Assembly (NCBI RefSeq): GCF_018873765.1
Contig: NC_057923.1
Coordinates: 58,026,593 to 58,090,592 of the forward strand
DNA length: 64,000 bases
Reading direction: 5' to 3'
Origin: Telopea speciosissima
Taxonomy: Eukaryota > Streptophyta > Magnoliopsida > Proteales > Proteaceae
The position numbers and the translations under genes are program-made. Below are positions 3,658-64,000 of the stretch, piece after piece (positions within the stretch are counted from its first letter, which is position 1; each line of letters starts with the position of its first letter). The notes under the pieces are model-generated. The model was not told the DNA's origin, did no database searches, and was given only the letters and a program-made list of their open reading frames with translations.

Positions 3658-5697
<2,040 letters not shown>

Positions 5698-9100: not shown

Positions 9101-10987
9101 CTATCCCAGCTGCTCGAAATTTACGTCGGCCATTGAAAGAATGTAATCGAGAAACGATTTCGGCATCCATGAGCTCCTGCTTTGCTGAATCCCCTATGAC
9201 CCAAGGATGCAAAAGAATCTGTTTACAGATTGAATGGGCATCATCAGTAAATTATTAAAGTCAGTTTGTGGAAAGGAATGAGAAAATCAAAACAGGGTGA
9301 TCAATCTGGAGATTTTCATCTGTTCAGTCGCAATATGACTTTTGTACTTCTTTATCCATCCTAGTTTCTTGAATTTTTTATCCAAACTGATGCAGATAAG
9401 TTACCTAAAGGGTTTATTTTATTGTAAATAAGCCTGGGCTGGGTTGGGTTATGTATGTGTGTAATCGCACAACAATATTGAAGAACTTCAAACTTTGAAC
9501 TCATAAAACTGTATCTGAGCCAGCCAATGGCTCTTATAAGCTATATATAGCTAACTTAACTTAGAATTCTAATTTAACGACGAAAAACAAATCAAATTGC
9601 TAAGAAACAAAAATAAGAAGCAAACTAATAAAGGAATCCTTCTCAACAAGGTGAAAGAATTCAAAGTCCATTAAACATCTTAAAAATAAAAAGAATTAAC
9701 TACGCCTAATCCTATATGCCTACCTTTTACCCATTTTTTAGGTCCATTAAAGTGACTCATTACAATAAAAACACATGGAATCAAAGCCTCAACACATACA
9801 TAACCCAACCCAAGACTTATTTCCAATAAAACAAACCCTTTGGATGACTTAACTGCATCACAAACATTGCCAACTTCATCCAGAAAGTGATCATATCATA
9901 CCTCTTGAGCAGTTGGTCTTTTTTGAGGATCAACAGTCAGAAGGCGGGATATCAATTGTTTTGCTGATGGAGAAATGGTTTTCCAAGTAGGGTCTTTGAA
10001 GCTGAAATCTCCCTGTGAAGAGATCAATTGAATAAACTACAAGGGAGATATCATGAAAAGGGAAATTAAACTTGGGACTATGGTAGAGTGACAATTCTGC
10101 ACACAACCGAAAGCAAAAGGAAAAGGACTTACAGCCAATATGAGTTGCTGTTTTTGCCGAAATGATGTAGCTTGGAAAGGTGGATCACTGAAATATTGAA
10201 AGAAGAATCATTGAGATTCAAGAAAAAAAATGTTTCAAACCAAGTCCAGAAAGAGTTGCTGACATACATACCCAGAGAGAAGTATATACAGAATCACTCC
10301 CAAAGACCACATATCAGTTGCACATGTTACTTTTCCCTGAGATAAGGTCTCAGGTGAAACATAATCAATTGAACCAAACAACCCAACTATTGGTTCAGTG
10401 AATTCCTCCACAGAACTCACTCCAAAGTCCATAATTTTCAAAGGTGAATTCTCACTATTGTTCAAGAAAAGGCAGTTTTCTGGCTTCAAGTCATGGTGGA
10501 CGATATTGGCACGATGAAGGGCACTTAATCCATTGGCAATTTGTCGAACCATTGCTGCAGCTTCTGCTTCTGAATACTTCTCTTGATCCACTATTCGATC
10601 GAAAAGCTCACCCCCAGAGCACAGCTCTAGTACAAGGTGGACACCATTTAGGTCTTCATAGAGATCATAGAGGTCAATCACATTTGGATGGGGTGTCACA
10701 TCTTCTACTATCTTCCTCATAACTGTAATCTCATTAATCAGCAAGGCATCTGAAACTGGTAAATTCGTCTTCCCTTTTTTAGTTTCTTTTGAGGCTGTGT
10801 TGCTCTCCTCCCTCAGACTTTCTGGTTTTTGCACAAAACTTCCGAACCTCTTGAGAGTTTTGATAGCTACCTGGGATTTGCGTCCATTGGACTTGCAAAT
10901 TCCTCTCCTCACAACTGAAAATCCCCCTCCACCAAGAACGTCCTTGACATAATAATCGTCCGATACTTCCCTTGTTTTTGACCTCAT
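6162..10987 (-). CDS. CCaMK: Calcium- and calmodulin-dependent protein kinase CCaMK
   Basis: CCaMK (DMI3 in Medicago) decodes nuclear calcium spiking and phosphorylates CYCLOPS/IPD3 in the common symbiosis pathway. Seven exons in transcript order, 10272-10987, 10133-10187, 9902-10012, 8986-9218, 7527-7734, 6425-6484, 6162-6338, join in phase to 519 residues (Medicago protein: 523). The kinase domain has a Gly loop LGGGGFSVV at 18-26, VAIK Lys43, DFG 187-189 and SPE 211-213. A Thr at about 266 (PTW) matches by position the regulatory autophosphorylated Thr of legume CCaMK. The calmodulin-binding helix is at about 322-350 (FNGRRKFRAAGIAS). Three EF-hand loops lie at 408-419, 444-455 and 486-497, each with the expected acidic residues. 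One oddity: the catalytic loop reads HHDLKPEN where the family has HRDLKPEN (His165). Otherwise the gene looks intact. Confidence 0.95.
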
Positions 10988-12335
10988 GATTTACCCAAAA
11001 TCTGATAACAAAGATCACCAGAGTTCTTGATATTTCTTTACTTGTTCACGCCGAAACAAAGAGCTGTATTCTTAAAATTAGAACCTGATAGTAGTTCAAA
11101 AACAGAATCAGAACTACAATGCAAGAACCTCGCCCATGATTCATTTTGGAAATCATCCAAATTACATTATGCCAAGAAAGAAAAAAAAAAGTAACAAAAC
11201 AGGACACTAATTAGGAGAAACCCAATCCTTCACAGAACACAGTAGCTGAAAGCTGGAGATCTGAAAACATTAACATCAATGTGTTATAGGGTAAACCAAA
11301 TGATAATTTGTGACAATGTCACTAAATAACAAATATATCACAGGTATCACCATTGATTATAACAATTCAATAACCAAATGAAGAACAATGTTACAAAGAT
11401 AACACAAAAAGCTTTAAGAACACATCCAATTTCCAACTGTTTCAAGGAAATTTTTTTTTTGGGGGGTGGGGGGGGGGAGGGGGGTTGGGAAACCACGGTT
11501 AATCACCAAAAACCATTTAGAAACCCAAGAGAGACCAACCTTAATTAAATATCATCATCATCAGAAGAAGAAGGACGAGAAACAGGACTGGTTATTGCAT
11601 AGGTTAAGGTGATAAAAGGAAAGAAACCCATCTTACAGGTTAGTGACAGGAAGGGATTGGAAGTTGACGTTGATTGATTTCATTCCTTGATCAGTTTCAG
11701 CCATTAAATTACAGCCTTAAAATAAAATGGAATGCAGGTGGAATGATGTGCAAGGAAATGAGGGAAGAAAACTGGTCGGCTTGGAGCCGAAGAAGAGATA
11801 AGAGAGAATCCCCTAACCTTAGCACTTCCATGAAGATCTCTTCTGTTTCTGTAATCCTTTCAGAGACAGACAGAGAGGGGGGAGAGAGGAAGACAGAGAG
11901 CCGTTAAAAGATGAAGAGTTTGTTATGAGGATATTTTTGTAATTGAGAGAATGGTTGATGGGCCTAATGGCCAATGGATCCTCAAAAGACCTATGACTGG
12001 AGGTCCATAAAGCTCCATGAGCCCACTGGACCCAGCGATTGTCCTCCACATCCAAAAATAAAATGAGCCCACTTGTGAACTTGGTTTTCTTTCAATTAGT
12101 TAATTCCCTTCATGAGACCTATTCTTTTTTTTTTTTGTTGGTAAATGCAAATTTATTAGAAATACACCAAGAGCTCATGGATGCCAAACAAGGCCTTCCT
12201 TGCCAAGGAGTCAGCTATGCTGTTTAACTCAACATGGGTGAGATTTCTACCTTTCAGGGGGTCATTTCTCCCCATCTTATATTTGGGTATAGGAGCTACG
12301 CTCCTAAACAATGTACTTTTTCTTGTATTTTAATA
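10988..12335. other. CCaMK promoter and 5' flank
   Basis: No other gene is seen. A splice acceptor (TATCAG|ATTTTGGG on the - strand, near 11003) lies 16 bases before the CCaMK start codon, and a donor-like AAG|GTTAGG occurs near 11815, so a 5'UTR intron is possible but unproven. A GA-rich tract at 11863-11901 may lie in the leader. At 11450-11487 there is a run of T followed by G-rich sequence. Confidence 0.4.
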
Positions 12336-12496: not shown

Positions 12497-12630
12497 ATTT
12501 AAATATATATAATGATGTGGTGCCTAATATAAGAAATAGGGTGGATGTAATAAATTCCCAATTATAATTGGGTTACATCAAGGATCAATTTTAAACCATT
12601 ATTTGTTGCCATTTATCATAAATGAATTAA

Positions 12631-14180
12631 AGAAAATTTACACATATCATCCCTCAGGTTTGACGAAAGGATATTTTCACCCCCCAAGTTTTGGAAAATT
12701 CTGCATACCTCCTGAGGTTTGCAAATGGTAACAAATAAGCCTATTCCGTTAGTTCATGACTAATACTGTTAAAAATTAGACTTAAACCGATGGAATTACC
12801 CTTTTAAAAAGAACCCAAAAAAACATAAAAAAACAAAACCTGCAACTCATCTACCCCAAAATCGATTGGGGAAGTTGAGTTGCAACCTGCTAAACCTCTT
12901 TTATTTTATTTGTCTTCTGTTTCTTCATTGTTTCTTTCTTCCCTCCCCTGTTCCTCCTTCCTCGGGTTTCTTGTTGTGGAGTGTGGGTTTGGTTATTCTG
13001 TATGATGTTCCTTTTTAATTGGGTTATGGGGTTTCTCTGGAATTTTGGTTAGGGTTCTTATTCGATTTGATGGATTGGAGCTGGATTTGGGTTCATTTTG
13101 GCCAATTATGTACTCTATTTGGGATTATTACATATCGATTCTGCTGTATCATCGTGGTGGATGTCTTATTGACTTGATTGGGTTCTAGGGTTTCACAGCG
13201 CAGGATTTTTATCATTTTCTGCTGTGTCAATTCTTTAATTACTTGAATCTCTTCTGCTTCTGCCGATCAAAAAGAAAAAATTGGAAATGGTTTCAAATTA
13301 GTTGCAGATTTTAAGTACAATTCTTGTGATCATTTGTCGATGTTCTTGTATTTGACCATCATGTAATCTTCTGACGAATTCTCTGTATCTTTGTAGACGG
13401 TTGTTCCACTCAACACATGGATCCTCATCTCCAATTTCAAAATTGCTTACAATCTCCTTCGCCGGCCGGATGGCACTTTCAACCGCCACCTCGCCGAGTT
13501 TCTAGACCGTAAAGTCCCTGCAAACACCACCCCTGTTGACGGAGTCTTCTCTTTCGACGTCGTAATCGACAAAGCCACCAGTCTCGTCACCCGGGTTTAA
13601 CGACCAGCACCAACCGATGCAGCTCAGCCGGGCATTATGGAACTCGAAAAGCCCCTTACACTGATGTCGTCCCTGTCATAATCTTCTCCCATGGAGGAAG
13701 CTTCGCTCACTCCTCCGCCAACAGTGCCACCTACGACACTCTTTGCAGGCGACTCGTCGGCATCTGTGATGCGGTAGTGGTCTCCGTAAACTACCGCCGT
13801 AAAACCTGTACCCTTGTGCTTATGATGATGGATGGGCAGCTCTCAAGTGGGTAAGCTCCAGGCCATGGCTATGGAGCGGGAAGGACTCTAAGGTTCACGT
13901 GTCCTTGTATGGAGATTGCTCTGGAGGTAACATGGTTCATAATGTCGTGATTACAGGTGGGTTTTTTGGGAAGATGAGTTGCAGGTGTTTTTTTTTTTTG
14001 GTTTTTTTAAGGGCAATTCTGTCAGTTCAAGTCTAATTTTTAACAGTGTTAGTCATGAACTGGCGGAATTGGCTTATTTGTTACCGTTTGCAAACTTTAG
14101 GGGGATACGCAGAATTTCCAAAAACTGGGGGTGAAGATATCCTTTTGTCAAACCTCAGGGGTGGTATGTGTAAATTTCCC
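12631..14180. mobile_element. Pack-MULE-like transposon carrying a GID1 fragment
   Basis: The ends are long terminal inverted repeats, about 12631-12860 and 13966-14180, roughly 85-90% alike, both starting with a variant of (A/G)GAAATTTACACAT. The element is flanked by a perfect 9-bp target duplication ATGAATTAA (12622-12630 and 14181-14189), the length made by Mutator-like transposases. It is 1550 bp long and has no transposase gene, so it is non-autonomous. The interior holds a piece of a GID1 gibberellin receptor gene. The left arm also ends in its own imperfect hairpin near 12841-12884 (TGCAACTCATCTACCCC ... GAAGTTGAGTTGCA). This is a Pack-MULE by structure: host gene DNA captured between MULE ends. 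Confidence 0.9.
13397..13955 (+). pseudogene. GID1: Captured GID1 (gibberellin receptor) gene fragment
   Basis: Translation from 13397 gives TVVPLNTWILISNFK, RRPDGTFNRHLAEFLDRKVP and PVDGVFSFDVVID, the start of the second exon of plant GID1 receptors. Further pieces in shifted frames match VPVIIFSHGGSFAHSSANS (the HGG of the hormone-sensitive-lipase fold) and SGGNMVHNV. The sequence begins directly after TTTGTAG, the intron-exon border known in GID1 genes, and the 5' flank looks like the GID1 intron, so capture was from genomic DNA, not from mRNA. The fragment covers about the N-terminal half of the receptor (344 residues in Arabidopsis). An early stop after VTRV, a missing stretch after NYRR and further frame changes show it does not encode a receptor. 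Confidence 0.88.
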
Positions 14181-14218
14181 ATGAATTAACCAAAGACATT
14201 TAAGATTAAGTCCCTTAG

Positions 14219-15000
14219 TATATGTTTTTTGCTGATAATATTATTTTGGTGGACAAGACAAAAGTTGTGATTACCGTCCGGTTAAAATTATGGCGATCAA
14301 CATTGGAATAAAAAAGATTTAAGACAAGTGGAACAAAAAACAAAGTATATGGTCTACACATAACTTTAGTACAATAGGACAGAGTAAGATTGATTTCTCC
14401 ATAAAGATGCGAAGTACCAATGGCTAGACGGTAAGACCCTATGCATAGTGAGAACCAATCATGAGGTAATGAAAATTGATGATAGGGAGATGCCGCAAAG
14501 TGATTATTTAGGTATATGAGATTAATCATAAATAAATGACGATGTTATACAGCGTATTAAAATAGGACAATCATGCAACCCACTATGATGTATGGTGCGG
14601 ACTGTTAGGTAATTAAGAAGCATCATGTAGATAAATTCAGTGTAGCGGAGATGAGAATGCTGAGATGAATGTCTGGCAAAACTAAGAATGATAAAGGTAA
14701 AGAATATCATATTGGAGCTGATTTAAGAGTAGCTCTATCAACATGATAGGGTATGAGAAAACCGTTTGAGGTGGCATGGTCATGTTCAACGGAGACCTTT
14801 GGATGCTCCAACACTAAGGAGTGTTTTGATTTAGATTCCAATAACTAAAAAATCCTAGACAGATCTAACACGACCCTAAGAGAAATAGTGAGGAAAGACA
14901 TGCATAGTTTACAGCCTTGTATTAATTATAACCTCGAATAGAGCTGATTGGAGAGAAAAGATCCATGTAGCTGATTGGATAAGACCTAATTGAATTAGAG
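14219..15000 (+). mobile_element. RTE-clade LINE relic: reverse transcriptase C-terminal part
   Basis: The + strand reads, with many breaks, the tail of a plant RTE-type reverse transcriptase: MFFADNIILVDKTK (the FADD catalytic box with its second Asp changed to Asn), then KKHHVDKFSVAEMRMLR-MSGKT, then RWHGHVQRRPLDAPT-like and finally a TIREIVRKD ... WREKIHVAD-like tail. Only the last third of the element is present (5' truncated, as usual for LINEs) and it has multiple stops, so it is dead. It starts about 30 bases beyond the right target duplication of the GID1-carrying MULE. Confidence 0.75.
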
Positions 15001-16122: not shown

Positions 16123-18804
16123 TCAGTCCACATTTACTTCTCTCAGAACTTTTGCAGCATCCTCGGGAAAAACAGGATTTATGTGACACCCAGTTGCCAT
16201 CTCAAAACCTGCTATAGTGGTTAGTTGGGGCACAATCTGTAGGAACCAGTGGGAGTATGAAACTTGAGAGACTGCAGCCTGAAGTGGAGAAGTGTGAATC
16301 ATGAAGTTGAATGGTGGGTCGTTCAACTGACGTGATAGCTTCAACAGCATGAGCTTCAACAGGCCCCCAAGATCTACTGCCTGTCAATAACATTGCATTG
16401 AGCGGGGCATAGTCTAAAAAATATGCACAAAACATAAACTTAAATGTGTGTATGGTCTCACACTAAGGCTATAATTGACTGTACCATTTATTACTGAAAT
16501 TGAAGTAACAGTTTACAGTTGACAGTTCTAAAATCGTTCAAAAAAAAAAAGTTTTAAAATCTTGATATATGCATAAATCTCTACTTTAGTCATCAGAGTT
16601 TGTAACTTATGAGCATCCACCGACTTCTTTTACATGCATACAGAACTCAATCTTGCTTCCGTCTATTAGTAGGCATTTTCTTTTTTCCCCTCCCACCCAA
16701 AGGCCCTGACGGCCTTGATACAATTCTTATACAATAAAAAGTGTCGAACAATGACCAAGTTACAAGAGAAAGCGTGCTTCTTGGCATCATTGAATTTTTT
16801 GGCTAGGCGTCCCTCTTGACTTAAGACACAGTTTATACTCAAGTGTTTAGTCTATCTACACTGGGTTTCTCTCAAGTGTCATAGGTCGAGTCTATGCAAT
16901 TGAGGAGTTGCTTTGTGATTGTAGACATAAGACACACCTCCACAGGGTGATCCGTCCTTTCTCCTCTGCCATGTTTCATAGCTGCCGGGTGAGGGGTTGA
17001 TGGATGGATCTGTTTCCAGATGATGTGTCTCGGTAGTAGGTCCAAAAAGGATGCATATCACATGAGGTGAAGGTGAAACTCGATCCCAAATCTGGGCATC
17101 AGCAGGCCAAAGACTTTACCAGCAGAAGTTGCCCGCACGTTCTATTATATTAGGTACTCTGTGACCACTTAGCTACACCAGTAATCTGCTTAATCCATCC
17201 CCTCCCCTCCCCTTCCCCCTCAACCCCACCCACTCCACGAAAACACATATTGTACTATTAAACCTGGGAAAATGTCCAAACTGAGTTTTACTGTGATGAA
17301 CTGTAGCACGGTAACACTTTTAACATTGCCATGAATTACAGAATTTCTTAGGGGTGAGGATGTGAGTGAATCAATAATTTTGATAGTATTAGAATAAATG
17401 GATGAAGCCCACATGGATCAAAAAGATGTATGAACAGTTTGTTGTTTACCTTCTCATTATCTAGTTCATGGAAATGAGACAAATGATCCTTTGGAATGAT
17501 CCAGATCTCAAAAGCAAATGAAGCTGCAAATGGAACCACCGAAATGAAGTGGGTTGACTGTTTGATTAAAAGTTCCTCAGGTTGAATCTCACAGAGGCTA
17601 CATTTTCCTGTCCTATCAAAATACTCCTTCATACTGTCTAGCCGGACAGAAACAGAGGGAGGAATGATGGGAAGAGCAATGATCTGACTGTGTGAATGAC
17701 TAAGAGATGCTCCAGCTGATGCACCATGATTCTTGAACACCTGAAAATCATAAAACCCATATCAACAAAAAGCACGACTCCATCTACCAAAGAGGGCGGA
17801 GATTAAAGATTTAACCAGCACAGAGAGGAAGTCGGGGGGGGGGGGGGGAATACACAATGAAGCTGAAAGATTATGCCAAGCAACTGCTCTTTTTCTTTTT
17901 TTTTTTCTTTTGTCTTTTACGTTGCCTGAATTCCATAAAAAATGGGGAGGAATAAGAAAGTCAAGAGGCAACAGTTACTCCTTTTAAAACAAATTAGGGC
18001 ACGGGAGGAAAGAAATTAAATTCATATAGAGAGAAGTAATGCCCAAGAAAGTGAACCAGTTAACAGCAGAACATTCCCAGAAAATGGTAAACGAAATTAA
18101 ATAATAAACACCAAATCAAATAACTTTATTTAGCTGAATCAACGAGGAAAACACTAGAACAATTATATAAGAGATCCCCAAACCACAGATATAAATGAGG
18201 ACAAGAAGAAAATTTTGCAGAGTGAGAACCAAGGATGTTATTTGTGTATTGAACAAATTGTTAGTTCAATTAAGCCTTATCTCAGTTTTAATAATGACAA
18301 ATTCAGTAAGTTCAAACAAAGGACATTTACCTGAGCATATTGTATTGATTCGTGGCACTCAAGCTGTTTAATCCTCTCCTTGTAAGCAAGAAGAACCTCA
18401 CCAACTTCTGTGCCAGAGAGATCAGACAATTGAATGGCGTGGGTGGGAGTTTCAATGACCACGTCATGAAATCCAAATCCACTTAAAGTGCACTGGTTTT
18501 GGGCATTGGGTTTAGGGTTTTGAAGCAGTTGCTGTTGTCTTTCATCCCTGCTGAGTGCTGGATAGAGGTTTTCAATGACTCTGATCTTCCAATCAGATGT
18601 CGAGTCTCTAGGGATCCGAAAGATCTCTGGTGCACACTCATGTTCATTACCGGCACAAAAAGGGCACTTCGATGCATTATGGTTAGGATTAGCAGGGGAT
18701 TTGGATTTGAAGTCAGATGGTCTTTTGGCTCTGGCAGGAGAGAAGACGACCCAACAGTTAAACACTGTATCCTTCCTGATTTCAGGATTTCGACTTGACG
18801 CCAT
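16123..18804 (-). CDS. GalT-like nucleotidyltransferase (ADP-glucose phosphorylase)
   Basis: This belongs to the galactose-1-phosphate uridylyltransferase branch of the HIT superfamily. The closest plant relative I recall is Arabidopsis At5g18200 (351 residues), shown to be an ADP-glucose phosphorylase. Three exons, 18331-18804, 17450-17740 and 16123-16380, join in phase to 340 residues. Visible features: the family N-terminus EIRKDTVFNCWVVFSPARAKRPSDF (abridged: EIRKD, WVVFSP, RAKRP), a Cys47-Pro-Phe-Cys50 zinc pair, a second CSLC pair in exon 2, and the active-site HSHSQ at 173-177, whose second His carries the nucleotidyl intermediate in this family. The C-terminal exon contains SYSHWFLQIVPQ and GFEMATGCHINP. 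The ATG at 18804 precedes the conserved start. It looks intact. The - strand start of exon 2 is GTG after an AG acceptor, so it is a splice border and not a start codon. Confidence 0.92.
17060..17200 (-). repeat. Possible SINE-like insertion in intron 2 of the GalT-like gene
   Basis: On the - strand, GTGTAGCTAAGTGGTC resembles a tRNA A box and TTTGGGATCGAGTTTC a weak B box. The right spacing and the position within an intron suggest a decayed SINE, but the B box is poor and no tail or target duplication was found. Confidence 0.25.
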
Positions 18805-24621: not shown

Positions 24622-26998
24622 CTACTGACTCTGATTTTCCCAATATTTTCTTTTCCATGTCTCCACTTCATGCATGGAATCTTCCTTTTCCTTAAGAATT
24701 CCTTGAAGTGCTGAAGGATCAAAGGGAGGAGGCATGGTGCAGGGTTTCTTATTTGAAGGTTCTTTCACCATGGATTCCAACAAAAACTCCTTCTTTAGTC
24801 CATCTGCAGGGCAAGCCAATGCCTCCAAACAAATCTCATTGGCACCTTCAGGTACTGTGGGTTTATATTTCAAGAGATTACCATACTCATTCAGCAGGTG
24901 AAACATGTAGTCATACACATAATCCATCTTCATATCCTCTAGTATGAACTTACTTGCTGCCTTACCAATGGCCTGAGCCTGCTAAAATCCATGGAAGCTA
25001 ATTAATAATTGTAGCTCAAAAAACAAACACAATCTGAATTATATTAGAGAGCTGCATCAAGGATATGTGGTTAATTGACCTCTTCTGTGTGATGGTTTCC
25101 CCAATCGACGGCATACTTAATAGACCTGCACTTATCACCGTCATCCCTCACCGGCCAATAATGATGCATAGGTATCAAAGCTCTTGTGATGAAGTCATAG
25201 TATTTAGGGTTCACAAGCAATGTGACTGAATCACAAGCTAGAATGTATTTCATACTAACAGACCATGCTATTCCTTCAATGTAGATCTTGTACCTAGTAG
25301 TGTAAATTATATTTTTGCAGAAGAAAACTTATTTCAGTCAGTCTTGTAGTAATCAACTTAACAAAATGTATGGGTAAGGTTTGAAAGAAACATATGGGTT
25401 CATTTGATCCCACTTCTCACCTGTGAGTGCACTGATTTGCTAGTTTTGATTGCTTGAAACCTTGTTTGCTTTCTTGGACCCAATCCTGCAAGTACTGTAC
25501 CTATTAGTACTGTAGTTCCAATGAAGGCTCGGTTGCTTTGATACCACTGATATGAACTTGGGAGAACTAAACCCATAAACCAGCAAGGTGAAGGAACCCA
25601 AGACCATATCAGTCCACACCAAATCACTTCTGTAAATTGAAGAAGATGGTAATTAAGTATCACCTGGACATAGAGGCGAGCGTTCCATTCTTGTTTATCT
25701 GTGACATTGCATTTCAAGAGCTCTCGCCTGTTCTTGGACATGTTTGGATTCCCTTTCCAATAGGCATAAGGTTCCCTTTCAGTCCAGTTAGTTCTTCCAT
25801 TGCCTTCCCTTAACTCTTCCAACAAAGAATCCCATGGCTTTACGTTTATCTCTGGCCTGCATCCACACCCAAACAGTTTTAATAGTACGATGACTGAGCA
25901 GAATCAACACTCACAAGAGAGACTATGTATGTAATCAAACAGAAGTTCAGAAATGATGGGCTATTTAGATCTTTATCAAATCAATCATATGACAGACAAT
26001 GTATGGAATTTTCCTTAACCATCCAAAAATCTTAACCAAATTTGACTTGTTCTTCTCTTTTTTCTCATTTCAAAATGGTGTTCTAGACCCTGAATCTATT
26101 CAGAGAATGCATACCAAACACAGCATTAATTCTAAAAATAAAGCTCAAAGAAAGCAAGGAAGCTTGTGATACATACCAACCCCAGAAGGACCAATCAGGG
26201 AAAACAATATCAAATGACATATCATCCCCACAGTAATGAAATATGGCTGGTGGGATCTTGGCTTTGGATCCATGGTAAATTCCTGATGTGATCACAGCTT
26301 TATCAGCACAGTTAAACATTATATCCAAGTCTGGCAGCTTTCCTGGGTATTTCCTCAACAGTTGTAGAATCCCCCAAATGGTATACAGGTCTCTGGACTG
26401 AGATGGGGGCACATCCTTATATTTCTTCAAGTAGACTCTCCCATTTAGAACAACAAGCCTGAAAAATGCTTTATCTCTAATCCCCTCTACTGTCTCCCTT
26501 GATATTCCTGTATCTTTCCATGGCTTTAAATTTTCATGGATCCAACGAAAATACTCTGGGCATACTTGAGACTCTGAATCATCATTGTCTTCTGTTTTCG
26601 ATGTCATCATCACCGAAGAACTTGCTGAACATATCTGTGTTAGGTTTGCAGTTGAGCAGTCCAGTGTGTTTTTTACTCTGTTTGTGTTTGAACTCCTTGA
26701 AAGTGGTGGAGTTCTATAATAATTACTTGTGTAATTTAGTATTGTTTCCAGCTTTAAGCCTCTTATGATGGACTGCAAAGACAATTCAGATAAACCATAT
26801 AAGAGAATTGCTCTAACCATAAGATGAGTGCCAAAATTAGTAGTACAGAGGTTTTTGTAACTATGGTAGTGTGTTTAGGTAGTTGGATATACTTACAGCT
26901 TCAATCCAGAAGGAAGAAATGAAGGCAGTAACAAAGAGGAGGAGAAAGGAGAAATAGAAGACCATTGTTCTTGTGGCCAACATGTTGTTCTTGTTCAT
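24622..26998 (-). CDS. GT90 (CAP10/DUF821) O-glucosyltransferase-like protein
   Basis: This is a plant member of glycosyltransferase family 90, the family of animal Rumi/POGLUT O-glucosyltransferases; the plant donor and acceptor are mostly unknown. Six exons in order, 26897-26998, 26177-26772, 25664-25856, 25421-25485, 25080-25293, 24622-24978, join in phase to 508 residues. Residues 13-30 form a hydrophobic signal anchor (type II Golgi/ER membrane protein). The CAP10 domain starts with CPEYFRWIHENLKPW at 105 and shows FRLVVLNGRVYL, GILQLLRKYPGKLPDLDI, FPDWSFWGWPEINVKPW, EPYAYWKGNP, CNVTDKQEWNARLY, IEGIAWSVS-KYILACDS and HHYWPVRD in family order. The C-terminal tail after ALACPADG is Lys/Glu-rich. 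It appears intact. The first exon was found from its ATG and the GCT|GTAAGT donor. Confidence 0.93.
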
Positions 26999-49346: not shown

Positions 49347-52300
49347 CTAAGCCTCACTGAGTTCTCCTTGCCTACTCTTGAGGGTGCTGGGTTTCCGGTA
49401 ATGAAAATAGATGAACTGAAGAAGTATCTTAATAACATGTCAAGATTCTATTTTCTACAAGTTCATAATAATTTCTCTGAGGTTAATAAAATGGTACTTC
49501 AAATTCAAGAAGAGCAATAAAATTCCAGCAACAATCCTAACAGGAATCAGAATCTTGTAATAGACTAAAGTTATTTCTTCAAAAACTAATTTTCAATCAT
49601 AATAATAAACCTTCAAGAAGAACAAGGAACACTTTCCTAACAATAACTAAGTCTAAAAGTTAATTAGGAAATACAGACACAAAACAAGAATTTATGCACT
49701 ACATGGAAGGACAAAAAAGATCTGTAAAAAGATATGACAATTGTTCAATAGAAGTTTCTCCACAATCAGTAGGCACCAAGGAGAAACTGGCTTCCACCAC
49801 AGGACCTATTTACTAATAATAATAAAGGGAAAGGAGTTCATCGATTGAAGTATTTCAGTATGAGGTACAACAGGGAATGTCGTCTAATACCCTGCTCCTT
49901 TTGTAGACAGGCATTCAGCCCCCACCCCCACCCCCCACACCCCCCCCCCCCCAAAAAAAAAAAAAACAAAAATTAGATCATTTTGGCATGATATATAAAG
50001 AAAAAGGATACAAAAAAATCCAGAAGCACACATCCTGCAGCATCCACCAGCCACGGCATATTCGGTCTGATTTTCGACCATCTCAAGCTGCTCACAAGTA
50101 TGCTACATAACAGTTGAATAAAAAAAATTAACATTATCATATATTTAAGCCTTAAGAACTAGAATCAAACTAATCTAAGACCCATAAACCCAAAAAGTGA
50201 ACCAACATTTCCTCACCAAGATATTTTGTATTACTAACAGAGAGACCAATCAAATGATACTAAAAACATAAGCATGAGGTCACAATTCCATAATATCTAC
50301 CAAGCAATAGGCATCAACAAACAAGAACATTATGATAAAACAGTCACCTTGCCACATATGTTGCATTTCCAAGTAAAGCAAAGACGAACATTAATGGATT
50401 CAGCCCCTACACATAATAGAACAATGGAGATTAGACATGCGCCATATGGTCAAGCTCTTAGGATCCCATTCTACCCAAATACCTAAAGGAGCATTTCAAG
50501 TAACCATGAGTGAAATTTGATGTTTATTGAGGCTAAGAAATGATGCACGGACCTAAACAAGTGTGGGATTTCACATTAATACCAAGGGTGACATTTTAAT
50601 TTGGGAAAAGGATGCAGCAAAGACATATAGATCATAGTTGTCACGGCGTCACGGCGATCCAAGTCGGTCAAGGGGTGTCATGTCGATATATCGACATGTC
50701 GCCCGCCATGGCATTGCCATGGCGAGCATGTCAACCATGTTTTATTTTTTATTTTCTCTATTTTTAATGTCATTTAGTATGATATAATATATATCCTATA
50801 ACATCAAAAATCAACATGAAAGTGTACTACTGTTAAAGATATACCAGAATACCAACCGTAGGGGCATTCTGGTCTTTTTCTGTTTTATTTTTCTGTTTAT
50901 TATATTTTATGTAATCCTAGATTCCTAGTCATATCTCGGCTAGGACTAGGGCTTTTCTTTTTTATTGTTTTTCCCTCAGCCTAGTTCTATTTTTGGGATT
51001 CCTAGTTGTATTAGGAATTCCTAATAGGATTAGGACTGAGGCAGCATTCATTCCTATTTGTACATTGATTTAGTGTTATTCAATTAATATAAATAAAGGG
51101 CCTGGGTGATCTATTTCGATCACTCAAGCATTCTCTCAGTTTTCTCTTCTAATATGGTATCAGAGCAGATATTTTCAATCTAGCCTGGTTCCTAACCCCC
51201 TTCCTTCCTTCCATTGTTCTCTTCTTAACCTTTTTTCACTCGATCTCCTGATCCTTCTCCTACCACTCGATCTTCTTCACTTTTTTTCTGTTTTTCTTCC
51301 TCAGTTAGGGCAGATCTAATGAGGTGATCTGTAAGATAGATGCTGTCCTAATCTTTTCACCTCAACAATTGATGATTTAACAGGTTTTTTGGTTCGATAG
51401 CTGCTGCCCACATCTCTGCAATTTTTTTGGAGTTCTCCCTATTGAAGATCAGTCTTCCCTTGACAATTGAAGCTGCTTTTCTTCTTGAGATCCACCTCTG
51501 CAGGTTTTTTGGACAGGTGCTGTCTCGATTTTTTTTCTTCCCCAGCATTGCAGGCTCTCACCATATCAAGTTACTTTAGGGTTTTGCTGAAAAACCCTAC
51601 CAATCTTCGATCTGGTTTCTCTCTGTTCTCTGTGTGGGCTATTTTTTTTGAGGATCTTCATCAACTTTTAGTGCTGATTCTGCAGACTTCTATCACTGCT
51701 TTGAAGACCCCTAACTCCCAATCGATTTTCCCTTCTAGGGTTTTCCTCTAAAACCTTGCTTATCGATTCTGGAGTTAGGGCTGCTTGTTTCTGCCTTCTA
51801 ATCCCTGTAGTTTGCTGCCAACTATCAAGTTTTATTTCAGTTTTGCAGCCACTATTTTTTTCTAAATTATGGGAGACTCAGAAGTGACCACAGCCAACTC
51901 TGGAGGTGATTCTCAGCCGCGGACAGAATTCCTCCCCTATGCTACTTCTATTAAACTTGATGGAACAAATTATCTTATATGGGCCAGGTCTCTCTCCTTG
52001 ACTGTGGCTGGTAGGGGACTCAGTGGGCATCTTAATGGTACATCCAAACAGCCTACTGAAGAGGGCACTGCCAAGACCCGATGGGCTGCCAATGATGCTA
52101 TGGTTATGTCTTTTATCTTGAACTCCATGCCACAAGATCTTTCCAGCCAGTATCTTCTTCATGACACAGCTGCACAAATATGGGCTGCTGCTAAGGGCAC
52201 TTATGGCCAATTGGGGAATGATGCACAGGTGTATGACATTCGCAAGACACTCCATTCTACTACCCAAAAGGAGCTGTCCGTGACTAAGTACTATGCTGTC

Positions 52301-55300
52301 CTCAAAGGTTTGTGGCAACAATTAGATCACTATGCCCCCTTTCAGCCCACTACAGCTGCTGATGTTACTGCTTATTCAGCCTACGTGGATAAGTTTCGTG
52401 TTTATGACTTCCTGGCTGGTCTTAATTCTGATTATGATCCCATACGTGTGCAAGTCCTTGGTAGGGTGCCTTTCCCTACATTGGAGCAAGCCTTCTCTTA
52501 TGTTCTCAATGAAGAAACACGTCGAGCTGCAATGATGTTGGGTACCTCTGTTGAAAGATCAGCCCTACAGGCTGCTGGTTCTAAAGGCACTTCATCTGAC
52601 TCTACTGCCACTGCCACTGCTACTGCTGCTGCCCCTCCAAAGGAGCCTGTCAAGTGTGAACATTGCCATAAACTATATCACACTAAGGCTCAGTGCTGGA
52701 AATTACATGGAAAGCCGGCTGATTTTGAGGCTAAACGTGGCCGTGATAAACCTAAAAACAAAGCCAATCACACTGAAAGTGTAGCTCCGGCACCCACTGC
52801 TGACAATAGTTTCTCCCAGGAGGAGTTCCAGGCTCTCCGGCGTATGTTACAGTCTTCCACTACATCTGTTCCTGCCGGCTACTCCACACCATCAGGTTCC
52901 CACTTTGCCCGCTCAGGTATTCCTTTTGTTGGTCACTATGCATCGGTTGTCTCCGCTCCTTGGATTATAGACTCCGGTGCCACTGATCACATAACAGGTT
53001 CTTCTAACCTTTTTCATCAATATTCCCCTTCTTCTGGCAAAGATAAAGTTCGGGTGGCTGATGGTTCCCTCTCCTTTGTTTCCGGCAAGGGGTCCATTAG
53101 CTGCTCCCCTTCACTTACTCTATCCTCTATTTTGCACATTCCAAAATTTACTACTAATCTTCTCTCTATTAGTAGTATTACCAAGAACTTGAATTGCAAA
53201 GTGACTTTTTTCCTACTCATTGTGTCTTTCAAGAACTGGACTCGGGGAGGACGATTGGATCGGGTAGGCTGCATGGTGGATTGTATCTCCTTGATGATGG
53301 ACCACAACAAGCTTTACCATCTCAATTTTGTCGGGCGATGAAAGAAATAACTGATTAGCCCTTCTACTGTAGGCATTATATTTTTTTTGCTTCCGAAAAA
53401 GAATTAAGAAAGACTCATGGTAACAATTCGAGCCGATGAAATTAGTAATATTATTCGTGAACGTATTGAGCAATATAGTAGAGAAGTAAAGATTGTGAAT
53501 ACTAGCCATCTTCTTTTTCTTCTGAATTGCACCAATGGCATTCTAGGTTAGGACACCCCTCCTTGGGCACTTTATCTCTTTTGTTTCCCACTTTGTTTAA
53601 AGATTGTAATAAGGAAGAATTTTTTTGTGAGCCTTGTGTCTTGGCCAAACAGACACGTTCCATTTATCCTATATCTAATAAACGCAGTTCTTCCCTATTT
53701 CACTTAGTTCATACTGATGTGTGGGGACCTAGTCGCAAGGCCTCTATTCATGGCCAACGATGGTTTGTTACATTTATTGACTGTCATTCCCATTTCACCT
53801 GGGTATACCTCATGCATAACAAGAGTGAAGTCTTCTCCTATTTTCAGCATTTCCATAAAATGATCCAAACCCAGTTTAATGCCTCTCTAAAAATTTTGAG
53901 AAGCGATAATGGGACAGAATATATGGAAGGTCCGTTCCAAAGATACCTTTCTGCCCATGGCATCTTACACCAAACCAGTTGGGTTGATACCCCAGCCCAA
54001 AATGGTGTGGCTGAAAGGAAAAATCGCCATCTCTTGGAAGTGGCTCGGGCCTTAATGTTTGCCCGTAATGTTCCCTCCTTTTATTGGGGAGATGCTATCC
54101 TTACTGCAACCTATTTGATTAATAGGTTGCCGACTCGGGTTCTTGCTTCCAAGTCCCCTATTGAGCTTTTACATGGCTCTTCCTTTTATATTGTTCGCCC
54201 TAAGGTGTTTGGGTGTGTCTGTTATGCTAGGGATACTAGATCTCCTGGCAAACTAGAGCCCGTAGTCTCCACTGCATATTTTTATGTTACTCTGCCACTC
54301 AAAAAGGGTACAAGTGTTATTATCCTCCTGCCCGCCGTACCATGGTCAGTATGGATGTTATCTTTCACGAAACTCTCTCGTATTATTCGTCCCCACCTCT
54401 TCAGGGGGAGAGTTCTAGTGAAGATGTGTTGACGGTAGACCCCCCTCTTAGGCATGTTTATGAGGAGTCTACTCCTGCTGTCCCTGCTATTCCTAGTATG
54501 CCTACCCCTACCCTTCCACCCATGTCAAGGGGAGCTATTCCTACACAGGGGGAGGTTCCCCATTCCCCTTCAGGGGGAGATGGTCTTGAACAAGGGGAGG
54601 TTTCCACAATTCCTGCTCAAGGGGAGGTCACCCCAGTCCAAAGAACCATTGGTGAATTTCAGCAAAGGACTGATGCGACAAATTTGAAGGTTTTTTCAAG
54701 GAATAAGACCAGAACTAGGGAGCTTCAATCCACTGTGACACCTGTTCCCGTCCAATTGCCAACTCCGGCTCCTGAACCTACTTCTCCACTTGGTAATACT
54801 TCTTATTTGGATCTCCCCATTGCTGTTCGCAAAGGTGTGAGAACTTGTACTCAACATCCTTTATCTCATGTTGTTTCTTATGAATCTTTGTCTCCATCCT
54901 TTCGTGCATTTGTTTCCTCGCTTTCTTCTGTTCGTATTCCTCAAAATTGGCAGGAAGCCATTACAAATGGAAAGTGGAAGGCAGCTATGATGGAAGAAAT
55001 GGACGCCTTGAAAAAAAATAAAACATGGGAGCTTGTGACTCTTCCACCAGGGAAGCGAACTGTTAGATGCAAGTGGGTGTTTGTAGTGAAGCAGAAGGTG
55101 GATGAAACTGTGGATAGGTATAAGGCACGCCTCGTGGCCAAAGAATTTACTCAGACATATGGGATAGACTACCAGGAGACCTTTGCTCCTGTCGCTAAGC
55201 TGAATACTGTCCGAGTACTATTGTCTTGTGCAGTTAACCTTGGATGGGACTTACAACAGCTTGATGTGAAGAATGTCTTCCTTAATGGGGAACTCGATGA

Positions 55301-58300
55301 AGAGGTTTACATGGACATTCCACCAGGTTTTTCTTCTGACAGCAATCGAGGAAAGGTATACAGATTGAAACGTGCTCTCTATGGGTTGAAACAATCTCCT
55401 CGAGCATGGTTTGGCGGGTTGAAACAATCTCCTCGAGCATGGTTTGGCGGGTTTCACAAAGCAATGGTTTCTGTAGGTTACAAGCAGAGTAATGCAGATC
55501 ACACTCTCTTTATCAAGAGAGTAGGCGAAAAACTCACTATCTTGATAGTCTACATTGATGATATTGTGGTCACTGGCAATGATGGTGTTGAGATCAGGAA
55601 GTTGAAGACATTTCTTGGTCAAGAGTTTGAAATTAAGGATCTAGGAAAATTAAGGCATTTTCTTGGGATGGAAGTTGCCAGATCTTCAAAAGGCATCTTT
55701 CTTTCCCAACGAAAATATGTCCTAGACCTACTGACTGAAACTGGTTTGTTAGGATGCAGTCCTTCAGATACTCCTATGGATGCAAATGTTCGTCTCAAGG
55801 AAAAGGAGGGTGATCCAATTGATAAAGGTCGATATCAAAGACTAGTGGGAAAGTTGATTTATCTCTCTCATACTCGTCCCGATATTGCTATTGCTGTTAG
55901 TCTTGTCAGTCAGTTTATGCATGATCCCTACACTTCACACATGGAGGCTGTTCTTAGGATTCTTCACTACTTGAAGTCCGCTCCTGGAAAAGGAATTCTC
56001 TTAGCTCCACATGGTCACCTACGCATTGAGGCGTATACTGATGCTGATTGGGCAAGATCCCTGGATCGGAAGTCTATTTCTGGTTACTGTTCTTTTGTGG
56101 GTGGTAATCTTGTCACCTGGCGTAGCAAGAAGCAAAATGTGGTGGCCCGTTCTAGTGCTGAGGCAGAGTTTCGTGCTATGGCACAAGGTATTTGTGAGCT
56201 ACTTTGGTTAAAAGGTTTGCTACAAGATCTTAGCGTTGCTATTCGCCTTCCTATAATGTTATATTGCGATAACAAGGCTGCCATTAGCATTGCACATAAT
56301 CCGGTACAGCATGATCGCACGAAGCATGTTGAGGTGGATCGGCATTTTATCGAGGAAAAGTTAGAGGAAGGCCTTATTTGTGTTCCTTATGTGAAGTCTA
56401 CTGATCAGCTTGCTGATATGTTCACCAAGGGACTGCCTGGACGGGTCTTTCATCCTAGCCTAGTCAAGTTGGGCGTGCTTGATATCTTTGCTCCAACTTG
56501 GGGGGGAGTGTTAAAGATATACCAGAATACCAACCGTAGGGGTATTCTGGTCTTTTTCTGTTTATTATATTTTATGTAATCCTAGATTCCTAGTCATATC
56601 TCGGCTAGGACTAGTAGGGCTTTTCTTTTTTATTGTTTTTCCCTCAGCCTAGTTCTATTTTTTGGATTCCTAGTTGTATTAGGAATTCCTAATAGGATTA
56701 GGACTGAGGCAGCATTCATTCCTATTTGTACTTTGATTTAGTGTTATTCAATTAATATAAATAAAGGGCCTGGGTGATCTATTTCGATCACTCAAGCATT
56801 CTCTTAGTTTTCTCTTCTAATAACTACTAATTCACTATGGTTTAATTCATGAAAGTGTAATATCTATTAGTGTATATGAAAGTATGAAAACATAAATTAG
56901 CCTATCAAATAATTGAAAGCAATAGTCTTGACTGTGTGCAGGACAAGAAGAAGAAAAAAAAATACACCTTCTCTGTCTATGTGGAACTGTGGAAGCATGC
57001 AACTGCAAGGCAAGAAGTAGAAACAAAAAACCGAGAGGTTGTGTGCAAGCCTGCAAGGCTGCAATTGCAAGGCAACAAGAAGAAAAAAGGAAGAAAAAAA
57101 AAACTGAGAGGTCTGCGACTGTAAGCAAGCCTGCAACTGCAAGGCAAGAAGAAGAAAAAAGAAAAAAAAACCGAGAGTACTATGGTCTATGGCTGTAACT
57201 GGAATAAATCCCTCCCCTCTGTCTCTTGACTATCTCCCTGTGACTGTAGTCACTGTACAAGCAGTTGCGTAGAAGGAAAAAAAAAAAAAAACCGAGAGGC
57301 CCCCGTCTCTCTCGACTATCTCCCTGTCTCTGTGACTGTACAAGCAGTTGCGAAGAAGAAAAGAGAAAAAAAAAAAAAAAAAAAAAAAAACCGAGAGGAC
57401 TACTAAGTACTAACTGAAATAAATCCCCCCCTTCTGTCTCTTGACTCTCTCCCTGTCTCTGTGTGTAACTGCGTATGTGTGGCTGTGCAAGGCAAGAAGA
57501 CACAAAAAAAAAAAAAAAAAAAACGATACTAATAGTGCTGGCTGTAATCACTAATCATTACCGGAGGCTGGGAGGAGATTAGGAGAAGAACTGAAGAAGA
57601 AGAAGAGGACTGCCTGGGAGGAGAAGAACTGAACTCAAAGATCGAGTTGCCGGAGGACTGGGAGGAGGAAGAAGAACCAAAATTAAAAAAATAATAATAA
57701 AAAATTACTTACCTGGAGTCCTGGAGGTTGCCGGAGGTGGTTGCAACTTCGAACTTCGAAGGAGTGAAGACCTATGTCGCCGAGAATTGCAGGAAGCCTG
57801 GCCGGAATCTCGACCTCTTCTCACGAACTGTTCCTCTGTCTCGAGTCTCGACTCTCTCCTCTCGACTCTCGTCTCGAACAATTTTGGCATTGCGATTTCT
57901 ATTTCCCCCCCCAATTAGGGTAATTAGGGTAATATGTTTGATGTTTTTAATTTTTTTATGTTAATGTGTATTGTAGGTGTATATTTTTAAGTTACACCTC
58001 CAATAGACATTAACGAAAAAGCATCTAAGCTATTAAATGGTTTTTTTTTTTTTTAAATTTAAGTCTAACTTTACATTCAAATGTACAAATATCGACCGAC
58101 ATGCCCATATATCGTGGTATGGCGTCCATGGCGACGCCATGGACGTCATATCGGACGATATTTTTACATTCACCATGGCGTACTTCGATATGTGCCTTTC
58201 CCCAGAGCCATGGCGACGCCATGACAACTATGATATAGATAGAGAAGGCAGGTTGGGACCCTTGATTTATGCCACATGGCATGCCAATTGAGCAAATTGG

Positions 58301-59682: not shown

Positions 59683-62600
59683 TGTTGAGATAGGCTACGT
59701 TACCCACTTGAGGTAACCTAGTCCTAGTTGCTTTCATTACTTATTTTATTTTAATTAGTTTTTTTATTGTTTTATTCCTGTTTGTCCCCCCTATACGATT
59801 TCTATTTGGGATTCCTAGTTATAGTGGGAATTCCTAGTAGGAATAGGATTGGGGGGGGATTCATATCTATGCTGTAACTTGTTTTTATTATAAATAAGAG
59901 GCTGGGATGATCGATCAGATCAACTAAGCATTGTTTCCAAGGCTGTTTACATGGTATCAAAGCCTAATCTGATCTAGGAACAGCTACTCTCGATTTCTGG
60001 TTCTCTCCTCTCTCTTATTTCTCAGTTTTTCCTTTTTTTCTGATCTTCCCCTTTCTCGGTTTCTGGTTTTTTTTCTTTTTTCTTTCTCTCCATCACTCTC
60101 GGCCTTTTTTCCCCATCAGGGTAGCAACTATGAGGTGATATAGTGCAAATTCAGTTGCTGCCCTCAATGTCACCTCATTAAAGATCGAAGAACAAGAGGT
60201 GTGACCTATTTCTGCCGGCAGGTTTTTTCCAACCTTGGAGATCGAGCTATTTTTCAACTGGAGTTTGATTTCTGCACTTATGGAGATTGGTTCCTGCTAT
60301 TATTGGTCTGCACCAGCCCTTGTTTGAAGACTGCAGCATTGGTTTAGATCCAATTCTGCATTTTTTCTGCATCTTTTTCCTGCAATTTGGGTTTCTGCAA
60401 TCAGATTATATTCATAAATTTGTCAAAAATTTAGGACTTTTTATTGGCTCATTAGAAAGAGCTAATTTTTGGAAGTTCTTTTCCCTGCTATTAGAGGGAA
60501 ACTCGACCTCAGTTTCAGCCTATTCTGCAAGCTGAAAATTCTGCAATTTCAAAACCCATTATTCACACTCGAATCAGGCTTTTTGAAGATCTGATTTTTT
60601 TCTCTGCTTGGCTGAATCATGGATGACTCAGAGATGACTACTGCTACTTCTGGAGGAGATCAAACCAGGTCTGATTTTCTCCCTTATGCTGCTGCCATCA
60701 AGCTTGATGGTACAAATTACTTAATTTGGGCCAGATCATTATCCCTAACAGTGGCTGGAAGGGGACTCACTGGCCATCTTACTGGCACCACCAAACAACC
60801 TACTGAAGAAGGGGCTGCTCGCACTAAATGGGCTGCCAATGATGCAATGGTAATGTCCTTTGTTCTAAACTCTATGACCACTGACCTCTCTAGTCAGTAT
60901 CTTCTCCTTGACACTGCTACACAGATATGGACAGCTGTCAAGGGCACTTATGGTCGTTCAGGTAGTGGTGCTCACAGGTTTATGAAATTAGGAAGACACT
61001 CCAAAACACTACTCAGAAGGAGATGTCTGTCACCAAATACTATGCTGCCCTCAAATGTTTATGGCAACAATTGGATCACTATGCTCGGTTTCAGCCTACT
61101 ACTACCACTGATATTACTGCCTACCACACCTATGTAGACCAATTCCGTGTCTATGATTTCCTGGCTGGCCTCAATGATGACTATGACCCTATTCGGGTGC
61201 AAGTCCTTGGACAGGTTCCTTTCCCTACTCTAGAGGAGACTTTTTCTTATGTTCACAGTGAAGAGACACGAAGGGCTGCCATGATGATTACTCCCAAAGT
61301 TGAGAGATCAGCCTTATAGACTGCTGGTTCCACTCCTGTTACTTCTGCTGACAGTGTTGTTACTTCTACTACTACCAGCAAAGAGCCTGTTAAGTGTGAG
61401 CATTGTCACAAACCATATCACACTAAGGCTCAGTGTTGGAAATTACATGGGAAGCCAGCTGATTTTGAGGCTAAACGTGGTTGTGCTAAGTCTAAAAACA
61501 AAGCCAATCACACTGAAAGTGTAGCTCCAACTCCCACTGCTGACATCGGTTTCTCCCAGGAAGAACTCCAAGCTCTACGTCGTATGCTGAACACATCTGC
61601 TGCCTCTACTACGTCTGCTGCCAATTTAGGTTCCTTCTTTGCCCGTGCAGGTATTTCCTCTGCTGGTCATTGTGCATCAGTAGCATCCACTCCATGGATT
61701 ATAGATTCTGGTGCTACTTATCACATGACAGGTTCTTCCAGTCTTTTTAATACATATTCTCCTGCTTCTGGTAAGGATAAAGTCAAAATTGCTGATGGGT
61801 CTCTCTCCTCCATCTCAGGGAAATGATCCATTGGTTGTTCTCCTTCCCTTACACTATCATCTGTGTTGCATATTCCCAAATTTACAACTAACCTTCTTCC
61901 CATTAGCAGTATCACTAAATCCCTGAATTGTAAAGTGACTTTTTTTCCCACTCACTGTGTCTTTCAGGAACTGGACTCGGGGAAGACGATTGGATCGGGT
62001 AAAGTGCATGGTGGATTGTACCTACTTGATGGCAATCCTAAACATACTCAGACTTTACCTTCGGCATCTTTCTCCTCTGACTTACATAAATGGCACCCTA
62101 GACTAGGCCATCCCCCTTTAGGTACTTTATCAAATTTATTTCCTGCATTAGATAAAGACTATAATAAGGAAAACTTTTTTTGTGAGCCTTGTGTCTTGGC
62201 TAAACAGACACGTTCAACTTATCCTATTTCTAATAAAAGATCCTCGTCCTTATTCCATATTGTTCATACTGATGTGTGGGGGCCTAGTAGGAAAGCTTCC
62301 CTGACTGGCCATCGGTGGTATGTCACTTTCATTGACTGCTATTCTAGGTTCACTTGGGTATACCTTATGCACACAAAAAGTGAAGTTTTTTTATGTTTTC
62401 AGCACTTTCATCAAATGATTAAGACCCAATTTAATGCCACTCTTCAAATTTTAAGGAGTGACAATGGAAAAGAGTATATGGAAGGTCAGTTCCAACATTA
62501 CCTTGCTGCGCATGGAATCCTCCATCAGACCAGCTGTGTCGATACTCTAGCCCAAAATGGTGTCGCTGAGAGAAAAAACCACCACCTCTTGGAGGTGGCT

Positions 62601-64000
62601 AGGGCTCTTATGTTTGCCCGCAATGTCCCTTCCCTTTATTGGGGGGATGCTGTCCTTACTGCAGCCTATTTAATTAATAGGCTGCCCAGTCGGGTTCTTC
62701 TCTCGAAAGCCCCTATTGAGCTATTATTTGGCTCTTTTTTTTTTATAGTCCCACCTAAGGTATTTGGCTTCGTTTGTTATGCTAGGGATAAAAGGTCCCC
62801 TGGTAAACTTGACCCACGTAGCCTCCGCTGCATTTTCTTGGGATACTCTGCTACCCAAAAGGGGTACAAATGTTACTACCCTCCATCACGCAGGACTTTT
62901 GTCAGCATGGATGTTGTCTTTCATGAAAATGTTCCATATTCTGTGTCCCCACCTCTTCAAGGGGAGAGTGTTAGTGAAGATGTGCTGACTATTGACTCTC
63001 CACCTCCACTTCAGTCTGTTTACCATGAGTCTGAACCAGTTCGGCCTGCCCCTGGTACCCCCTGAGTCAGGGGGAGAGGTTCCTATACAGGGAGAGACCG
63101 TTTCTATTCAGGGGGAGCAAGCTACCCCGGTCCAGACTCCTGCCCAGAGGACTATTAGTGAATTTCAGAGGAGGATTGATGCCAGTAATATGAAGACCCA
63201 TGCAAGGAAACATAAGCAAGTTCAATCAACTGTTGCTCCAATACCCATCCAATTGCCGAACCCGGATCCAGAACCTGTCTCTCTACCTGGTAATGTTCCT
63301 GATTTACCTATTGCTCTTCGCAAATGTGTCAGATCTTGCACTCAGCATCCCATATCTCATGTTGTTTCTTATGATTCCCTTTCCCCATCCTTTCGTGCCT
63401 TTGTTTCCTCTCTTTCTTTTGTTCGTATTCCTAACAATTGGCAGGAAGCTTTATCAGCAGAAAGTGGAAGGCAGCTATGATGGAAGAAATGGAAGCCCTG
63501 AAAAAAAATAACACATGGGAGCTTGTGGTTCTTCCACCTGGGAAGAAAACCGTTGGATGCAAATGGGTGTTTGTGGTGAAACAGAAGGTGGATGGCACTG
63601 TGGATAGGTATAAGGTACGACTCGTGGCCAAAGGGTTTACTCAAACATACGGCATTGATTACCAGGAAACTTTTGCACCTGTTGCCAAGTTAAATACTGT
63701 TCGTGTGTTATTATCTTGTGCAGTTAACCTTGGATGGGATTTGCAGCAGCTAGATGTAAAAAATGTCTTCCTTAATGGGACACTGGATGAGGAGGTGTAT
63801 ATGGACATTCCACCAGGGTTCTCTTGTGACAGAAACCAAGGAAAAGTATGTAAACTGAAGCGTGCACTTTATGGGCTGAAGCAGTCACCTCGAGCATGGT
63901 TTGGGCGGTTCCACAAGGCCATGATTTCTGTGGACTATAAGTAGAGTAATGCTGATCACACACTCTTTATAAAGAGGGTTGGTGAAAAACTCACTATTCA
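59683..64000 (+). mobile_element. Second Ty1/copia LTR retrotransposon (fossil), cut by the window end
   Basis: A 5' LTR of 269 bp (59683-59951, TG...CA) is followed by a primer-binding site TGGTATCAAAGCC. From 60619 the interior is clearly related to the element at 50831: gag ([20 protein letters not shown]), zinc knuckle, protease, integrase ([10 protein letters not shown]) and reverse transcriptase up to the window end. The LTRs of the two are different in length and mostly in sequence but share a GGGATTCCTAGTT ... GGAATTCCTA core, so they are sister families. The coding part is broken, with several breaks, more than in the first element, which suggests it is older or longer inactive. The 3' LTR is outside the window, so age cannot be read. 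It lies upstream of a PQ-loop exon, probably in the next intron. Confidence 0.92.

Follow-up and report, generated by a model that had tools for sequence, protein, structure and literature searches.

A Mutator-like element with pieces of a receptor-kinase gene and a GID1 gene, very probably acquired in two captures

About half of a GID1 gene lies between inverted repeats on chromosome C8, which raises the question of how it came to be there and whether it has had any role since. We analyzed a window of 64,000 nucleotides (the whole stretch of DNA under study, C8:58026593-58090592) against the genome, 823 Mb in 1,287 contigs. Positions 12631-14180 of the window are a 1,550-bp Mutator-type element. 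The element and its borders comprise the following features.

12499-12630 (+): left part of the interrupted host repeat, a reverse-transcriptase fragment with the frame KFPIIIGLHQGS visible
12622-12630 (unstranded): left target-site duplication ATGAATTAA, also present as a single copy at the empty site L078
12631-12861 (+): left terminal inverted repeat, with inverted arms to 13963-14177 and ends found family-wide
12841-12884 (unstranded; arms 12841-12859 and 12866-12884): sub-terminal palindrome at the inner edge of the terminal repeat
12881-12963 (+): captured sequence of an LRR receptor-kinase gene (C3:69.09 Mb), taken from immediately before its start codon; the left edge is uncertain by a few bases
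12964-13396 (+): captured GID1 intron sequence, from alignment with the gene L005, ending in the 3' splice site TTTGTAG
13397-13954 (+): captured first part of GID1 exon 2, with a stop, frameshifts, and deletions
13963-14180 (-): right terminal inverted repeat (inverted arms)
14181-14189 (unstranded): right target-site duplication ATGAATTAA, a perfect 9-bp match to the left one
14190-14380 (+): right part of the interrupted host repeat, from joined-flank matches

The terminal inverted repeats (TIRs), described as long in the first-pass annotation, resolve into four pairs of inverted arms: 12634-12684/14127-14177 (51 nt, 90% alike), 12682-12712/14101-14131 (31 nt, 81%), 12708-12823/13989-14104 (116 nt, 83%), and 12817-12861/13963-14007 (45 nt, 87%). 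They extend over ~220-230 bp, which places them among the long TIRs of MULEs. The perfect 9-bp target-site duplication (TSD) reported earlier is likewise present on both sides. The motif of the sub-terminal palindrome is also visible in two other elements, L044 and L046. Arm by arm, the two TIRs are 81-90% identical, and we count this against the explanation favored below. A Pfam scan of 10 of the 16 frames of at least 50 codons that overlap the element found no transposase; two frames matched Abhydrolase_3 (GID1) and eight matched nothing. The Abhydrolase_3 signal of the exon piece is divided between two separate frames (34.9 and 36.5 bits). Read from its sequence, the window copy can no longer serve as coding sequence and most likely has no role at the protein level.

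Target sites lacking the element were sought by joining its two flanks into a query of length 600, with the best 40 of 2,168 candidates scored. This yielded 41 matches: two were the window's own halves, one was a short piece, and 38 crossed the joint. Matches to other copies of the repeat covered about 169-491 of the 600, and none of the five joint-crossing copies that were aligned (out of 38) had a gap at the joint. One of these empty sites (L078) has a single ATGAATTAA, another (L079) has ATGAATTGA at the target position, and the remaining three (L077, L080, and L081) have diverged versions of ATGAATTAA. The host repeat codes for reverse transcriptase (RVT_1, 35.3 bits on copy L078; cut-off 29.6). 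These empty sites, in paralogous repeats, support insertion of the element into a copy of the repeat. The alternative, that two unrelated inverted repeats flank a GID1 pseudogene or segmental duplicate by chance with no mobile element involved, draws on the 10-19% difference between the TIRs of the window copy. It is contradicted by the perfect TSD, by identical internal joins in four copies on four chromosomes, and by the large family of ends described below; the empty sites already refute it, and its probability is negligible. The observation of an inserted element is, on these alignments, confirmed and not due to chance.

A protein-kinase gene at 10235-10990 (-; Pkinase, 158.8 bits) has its 5' end facing the element, which sits about 1.6 kb upstream of it. 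One frame was scanned with Pfam in each of three further genes: an epimerase-family gene at 3658-5697 (+), which looks like SQD1; a galactose-1-phosphate uridylyltransferase-like gene at 17348-18804 (-); and a glycosyltransferase family 90 gene at 25400-26874 (-). Two related copia-type retrotransposon coding regions occupy 51866-56579 and 60616-63944 (+), and the one of their frames that was scanned has gag and Pol_BBD domains.

Across the whole genome, a 25-base core of the ends was located at 501 forward and 485 reverse sites (986 in all, at most two mismatches), while the same search with the reversed core returned none on either strand. Among the 100 of these 986 sites that were listed, spanning C1 to part of C3, 26 adjacent pairs converge within 12 kb and no pairs have other orientations. 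The spacing is 1.2-2.8 kb in 24 pairs, 198 bp in one, and 9.9 kb in one. TSDs were scored with either end allowed to shift by up to four positions, and distinct elements were tallied by hand. Both ends fell within the fetched stretch for 20 distinct elements, and on this basis 18 of these have 9-bp flanks with no more than one mismatch. The flanks are exact in 13 and T-runs in three (two of them exact). The other two elements of the 20, L011 and L014, have no 9-bp flanking copies even with the shift. The first-pass annotation had allowed that the ends might be absent elsewhere as a mobile family, which would tell against it; the 986 core sites and the TSD-flanked relatives are the opposite outcome.

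The 9.9-kb pair, on C2, delimits a relative of ~10 kb (L074) that is the best found. Its ends are 88 and 90% like those of the window element over 170 bp, and it is flanked on both sides by the TSD TAAAATAAA. A 505-aa frame of L074 matches DBD_Tnp_Mut at 62.1 bits, against a cut-off of 25, and the MULE domain is present as two fragments that score 26.3 and 21.9 bits and so miss its cut-off of 27.6. On this domain and end evidence, L074 is a degenerate MuDR-type relative that shares its ends with the window element. A relative of this type, with the same ends, would have supplied transposase in trans. A separate search for the MULE domain scored 150 of 827 candidates, of which 48 lie on C1-C3; L074 was not among the 150, and the 48 are all more than 29 kb away from any listed core site. 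With 150 scored MULE matches of 827 set against 100 listed core sites, a clearly intact autonomous partner was not found. The MULE-domain match at C8:21036120 was rejected as a partner; it is near family ends but outside them, and no further end turned up in L069.

The GID1 exon piece matched 10 places (nine candidates, all scored): the window itself, four at 95-96%, one at 85%, and four weaker ones at 71-74%. Three of the matches at 95-96% are elements (L002, L003, and L004), and the fourth is an intact GID1 gene, L005 (C7:30089504-30093066). This is the parental locus that the first-pass annotation had proposed to look for, and the three elements are the further copies with the same ends. 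L005 consists of exon 1 (MAGGSEVNINEAK), then GT, an intron, and a 331-codon exon 2; it matches Abhydrolase_3 at 193.5 bits, and among solved structures exon 2 residues 1-331 are closest to GID1A (E 2.9e-183). A second GID1 gene (L006, on C4) has the same layout with an open 332-codon exon 2. The window piece resembles L005 at 95% and L006 at 85%.

The captured stretch corresponds approximately to L005 positions 1056-2086; its intron share is 445 bp and its exon-2 share about 586 bp, or 195 of 344 codons. GID1-derived DNA in the window copy runs from 12964 to near 13954, with 433 bp on the intron side. Against L005, 404 aligned intron positions have 11 differences and 560 aligned exon positions have 19; L002, L003, and L004 each align over 445 intron positions. 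The earlier description of a Mutator-like element holding about half of a GID1 gene is thus supported, with the C7 gene as donor, and its exon start at 13397 is correct, as the exon directly follows ...TTTGTAG. The claim that the fragment begins at the intron-exon border does not stand, since the captured DNA starts inside the intron. Retention of intron sequence indicates capture at the DNA level, as the first-pass annotation had held. RNA-mediated capture by retroposition, for which nothing was found in favor, is refuted by the intron kept in all four copies and can be given practically no weight.

The four GID1-carrying elements are on four chromosomes, C8 (window), C1, C4, and C6. They form one clade (support 97.2/99), within which only L002 and L003 are grouped with any support (92.3/82), and they differ pairwise by 1.1-2.7% in the intron part. 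At 18 positions, all four differ from L005. Independent captures of GID1 were dropped in view of this single supported clade and its 18 common differences, and we infer from the shared sequence that the four elements descend from one capture. That the element moved afterwards is shown by its presence on four chromosomes and by the distinct, clear TSDs of two copies (AAAATAAAA for L002, ATGAATTAA for the window). L003 and L004 sit in T-runs, and the T-rich flanks of the C6 and C4 copies make their TSDs uninformative; the left side of L003 is split by another insertion, and the C4 copy is without its outermost bases at one end. A block of ~130 bp kept in L002, L003, and L004 is absent from the window copy at 12963/12964, where it was lost later. 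A sequence at C3:70.74 Mb (L051, 84% over about 120 bp) was considered as a third source and rejected, as it seems to be no more than diverged GID1 intron sequence.

The GID1-only description also needs correction in one respect, since 12881-12963 comes from a second gene. Window positions 12878-12963 are 97% identical to C3:69093037-69093122. The captured DNA starts 236 bp before the ATG of a C3 gene (L050) encoding an LRR protein. Among solved structures, the receptor kinase At4g26540 is nearest to it (E 7.9e-152), judged on the LRR part that fell within the fetched stretch. The sequence taken from upstream of the ATG is presumably transcribed leader. Two further elements, L044 (C10) and L046 (C11), share these ends and the left join and then continue into the N-terminal coding sequence of the kinase. 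They are flanked by the TSDs ATAAATAAA and AAAAAAGAA, respectively, and in each a frame of 205 codons containing the kinase's own ATG is open; L046 matches the kinase gene over 806 bp at 96%. About 150-170 bp of the kinase stretch is held by L002 and L004, and part of it, split by the insertion, by L003. Relative to the C3 gene, the elements have in common TTCCCTCCCC for TTCCTTCCCC (with a further change there in L004) and, where this is present, GCGTTTG for GCGTGTG. These common changes support common descent.

The switch from kinase to GID1 intron occurs at ...GAGAG/TTATGGG, where 2 bp (AG) are common to both donors. Because only a contiguous capture yields L044 and L046, the capture of the kinase probably came first, with GID1 later replacing its coding part, an order based on parsimony. 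The history that we propose begins with a family element that would have captured the upstream stretch and N-terminal coding sequence of the kinase gene from C3. A GID1 piece, whose source was the C7 locus or else a close allele or duplicate, would then have replaced the kinase coding part. After this one GID1 capture, transposition and separate decay of each copy would account for the present elements. Both captures could have arisen by template switching during repair or replication of the element.

The same ends enclose other cargo. One frame was scanned from each of 10 elements, among 18; three exceeded the Pfam cut-off (GH17 at 47 bits in L024, a homeodomain at 62.5 in L059, and LRR_1 at 28.1 in L046), one fell below it (WEMBL, L060), and six were without any match. 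L059 is 97% identical to C1:4590003-4590687 over 690 of its 1,091 bases, in the internal part only, and L024 is 94% identical to C10:49742354-49743016 over 658 of 981. On these matches, this family of ends has captured more than one gene. Two neighboring parts of L024 match segments about 800 bp apart within C10:49742354-49743951, a spacing that could reflect a skipped intron, two captures, or an insertion in the gene. The gene-like frame of L066, which may resemble an ABC transporter, had no Pfam match. The captured part of the GID1 exon has a G+C content of 53.9%, compared to 44.1% for the rest of exon 2 and 38.7% for the window, whereas the kinase coding sequence has no such contrast (49.9% versus 50.1%). 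A preference of Pack-MULEs for high-GC sequence is reported in passages of PMC8277862.

Was L005 itself the donor? All four elements contain 28 intron bases that are absent from L005, and a similar stretch is found in the paralog L006; L005 probably lost them. In the tree, the stem of the elements (0.0129) is longer than the L005 branch (0.0056). Taken together, the missing 28 bases and the longer stem suggest that L005 may not be the exact donor. The exon changes were sorted by where they fall, with an expected replacement share of 0.73-0.76. Those common to all four copies on the element side are five silent and one replacement (p 0.004-0.007, kappa 1-3); two silent changes fall on the L005 side and one silent change is unplaced. 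Changes common to two elements are two silent and one replacement. Of the 22 private to single copies, 17 are replacements and five silent (p 0.64-0.76). The private changes look neutral, as expected without constraint, and the six element-side changes hint at constraint.

Either the elements or their source could have been under that constraint. The capture did not include exon 1 with the native GID1 start codon, and exon 2 is directly preceded by a TAG in frame; this makes constraint inside the element unlikely, and an allele or copy of the donor that we do not see is the better reading of the signal. An allele or duplicate of the C7 gene, absent from the assembly, would then be the source of the captured GID1, and the constraint on the shared changes would predate capture. 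The 28-bp stretch, the long stem, and the contrast between common and private changes all point this way. So does a similar trend in the kinase-bearing siblings L044 and L046, where three of nine common changes in codons 1-181 are replacements (p 0.008-0.018, unpolarised). These kinase changes were counted by hand, with codons after 181 (the capture end) and one silent three-state site excluded. However, only six exon changes could be placed, some placements may be wrong given an outgroup as distant as 12.5% (exon 2) and 24.6% (intron), and the 28-bp stretch could be a deletion from L005 after capture. Furthermore, the private kinase changes are also biased towards silent ones (five of 12 are replacements, p 0.012-0.026), which fits constraint after capture. 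We regard this donor as a serious candidate whose chances fall slightly short of even.

A captured GID1 segment that was, or is, a functional unit, as a truncated receptor or through small RNAs directed at GID1 genes, could also be envisaged. The exon-2 frame is open in two of the four copies (203 codons in L002, 202 in L004), the element-side changes are mostly silent, and the similarity of the window piece to both GID1 genes would be near enough for cross-pairing. In maize, donor genes are silenced through captured sequences, according to passages of a review (PMC13317346). Against a functional unit in the present elements, the frame is broken in the window (67 codons) and in L003 (167 codons), the native start is missing, and the private changes match the unconstrained expectation. 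Such a role seems improbable. A wider proposal is that the elements are fossils of a lost GID1 allele or copy and that L044 and L046 still encode a constrained, truncated receptor ectodomain; as a whole this is doubtful, if a little less so. Were it true, a single transposon family would have been passing on parts of two hormone-receptor genes, with coding constraint acting on one or both. A genuine constraint signal would mean that lost gene alleles can be preserved in captured fragments.

We conclude with high confidence that the element is a non-autonomous, TIR-bearing Mutator-like element (a Pack-MULE) that underwent two successive captures, of kinase and GID1 sequence. The Pack-MULE reading of the first-pass annotation agrees with the TIRs, the 9-bp TSD, identifiable donors (GID1 on C7 and the kinase on C3), retained introns, and mobility after capture. 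Among the papers accessible to our literature search, none linked Pack-MULEs with GID1 or transduplication with a gibberellin receptor, and Pack-MULE and Proteaceae came up together only in a paper on sacred lotus (PMC4053705).

Pack-MULEs of rice and other plants likewise have long TIRs, a 9-bp TSD, unlinked donor genes, retained introns, and several copies, and no transposase domain is found in the element. Fragments of more than one locus in a single rice Pack-MULE are described in passages of PMC8903248, and the C8 element is of the same composition. In kind the element is ordinary, multi-locus Pack elements being known from those passages, but the evidence for it is unusually complete. 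It differs in that a kinase-only state exists and both donor loci can be named in one genome, and in that the host is probably an early-diverging eudicot. One genome contains both donors, first-capture-only elements, chimeras, a relative of transposase type, and empty sites, so that the sequence of steps by which Pack-MULEs shuffle genes can be read, probably outside grasses.

Sacred lotus, an early-diverging eudicot, has elements of the same kind by description: 1,447 Pack-mutator-like elements, at least 10 of them expressed, are reported in the accessible text of PMC4053705. Pack-CACTA elements are plant TIR transposons that also capture gene fragments (passages of PMC8903248 and PMC13317346); in contrast, the same-ended relative of the C8 element is MuDR-type and its TSD is 9 bp. 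Animal Pack-TIRs, for which gap-filling and FoSTeST models exist, are similarly multi-copy, carry captured sequence, and have microhomology of a couple of bases at their joins (median 2 bp, in excerpts of PMC8277862); they differ in being animal elements, and the template-switch mechanism is here a proposal only.
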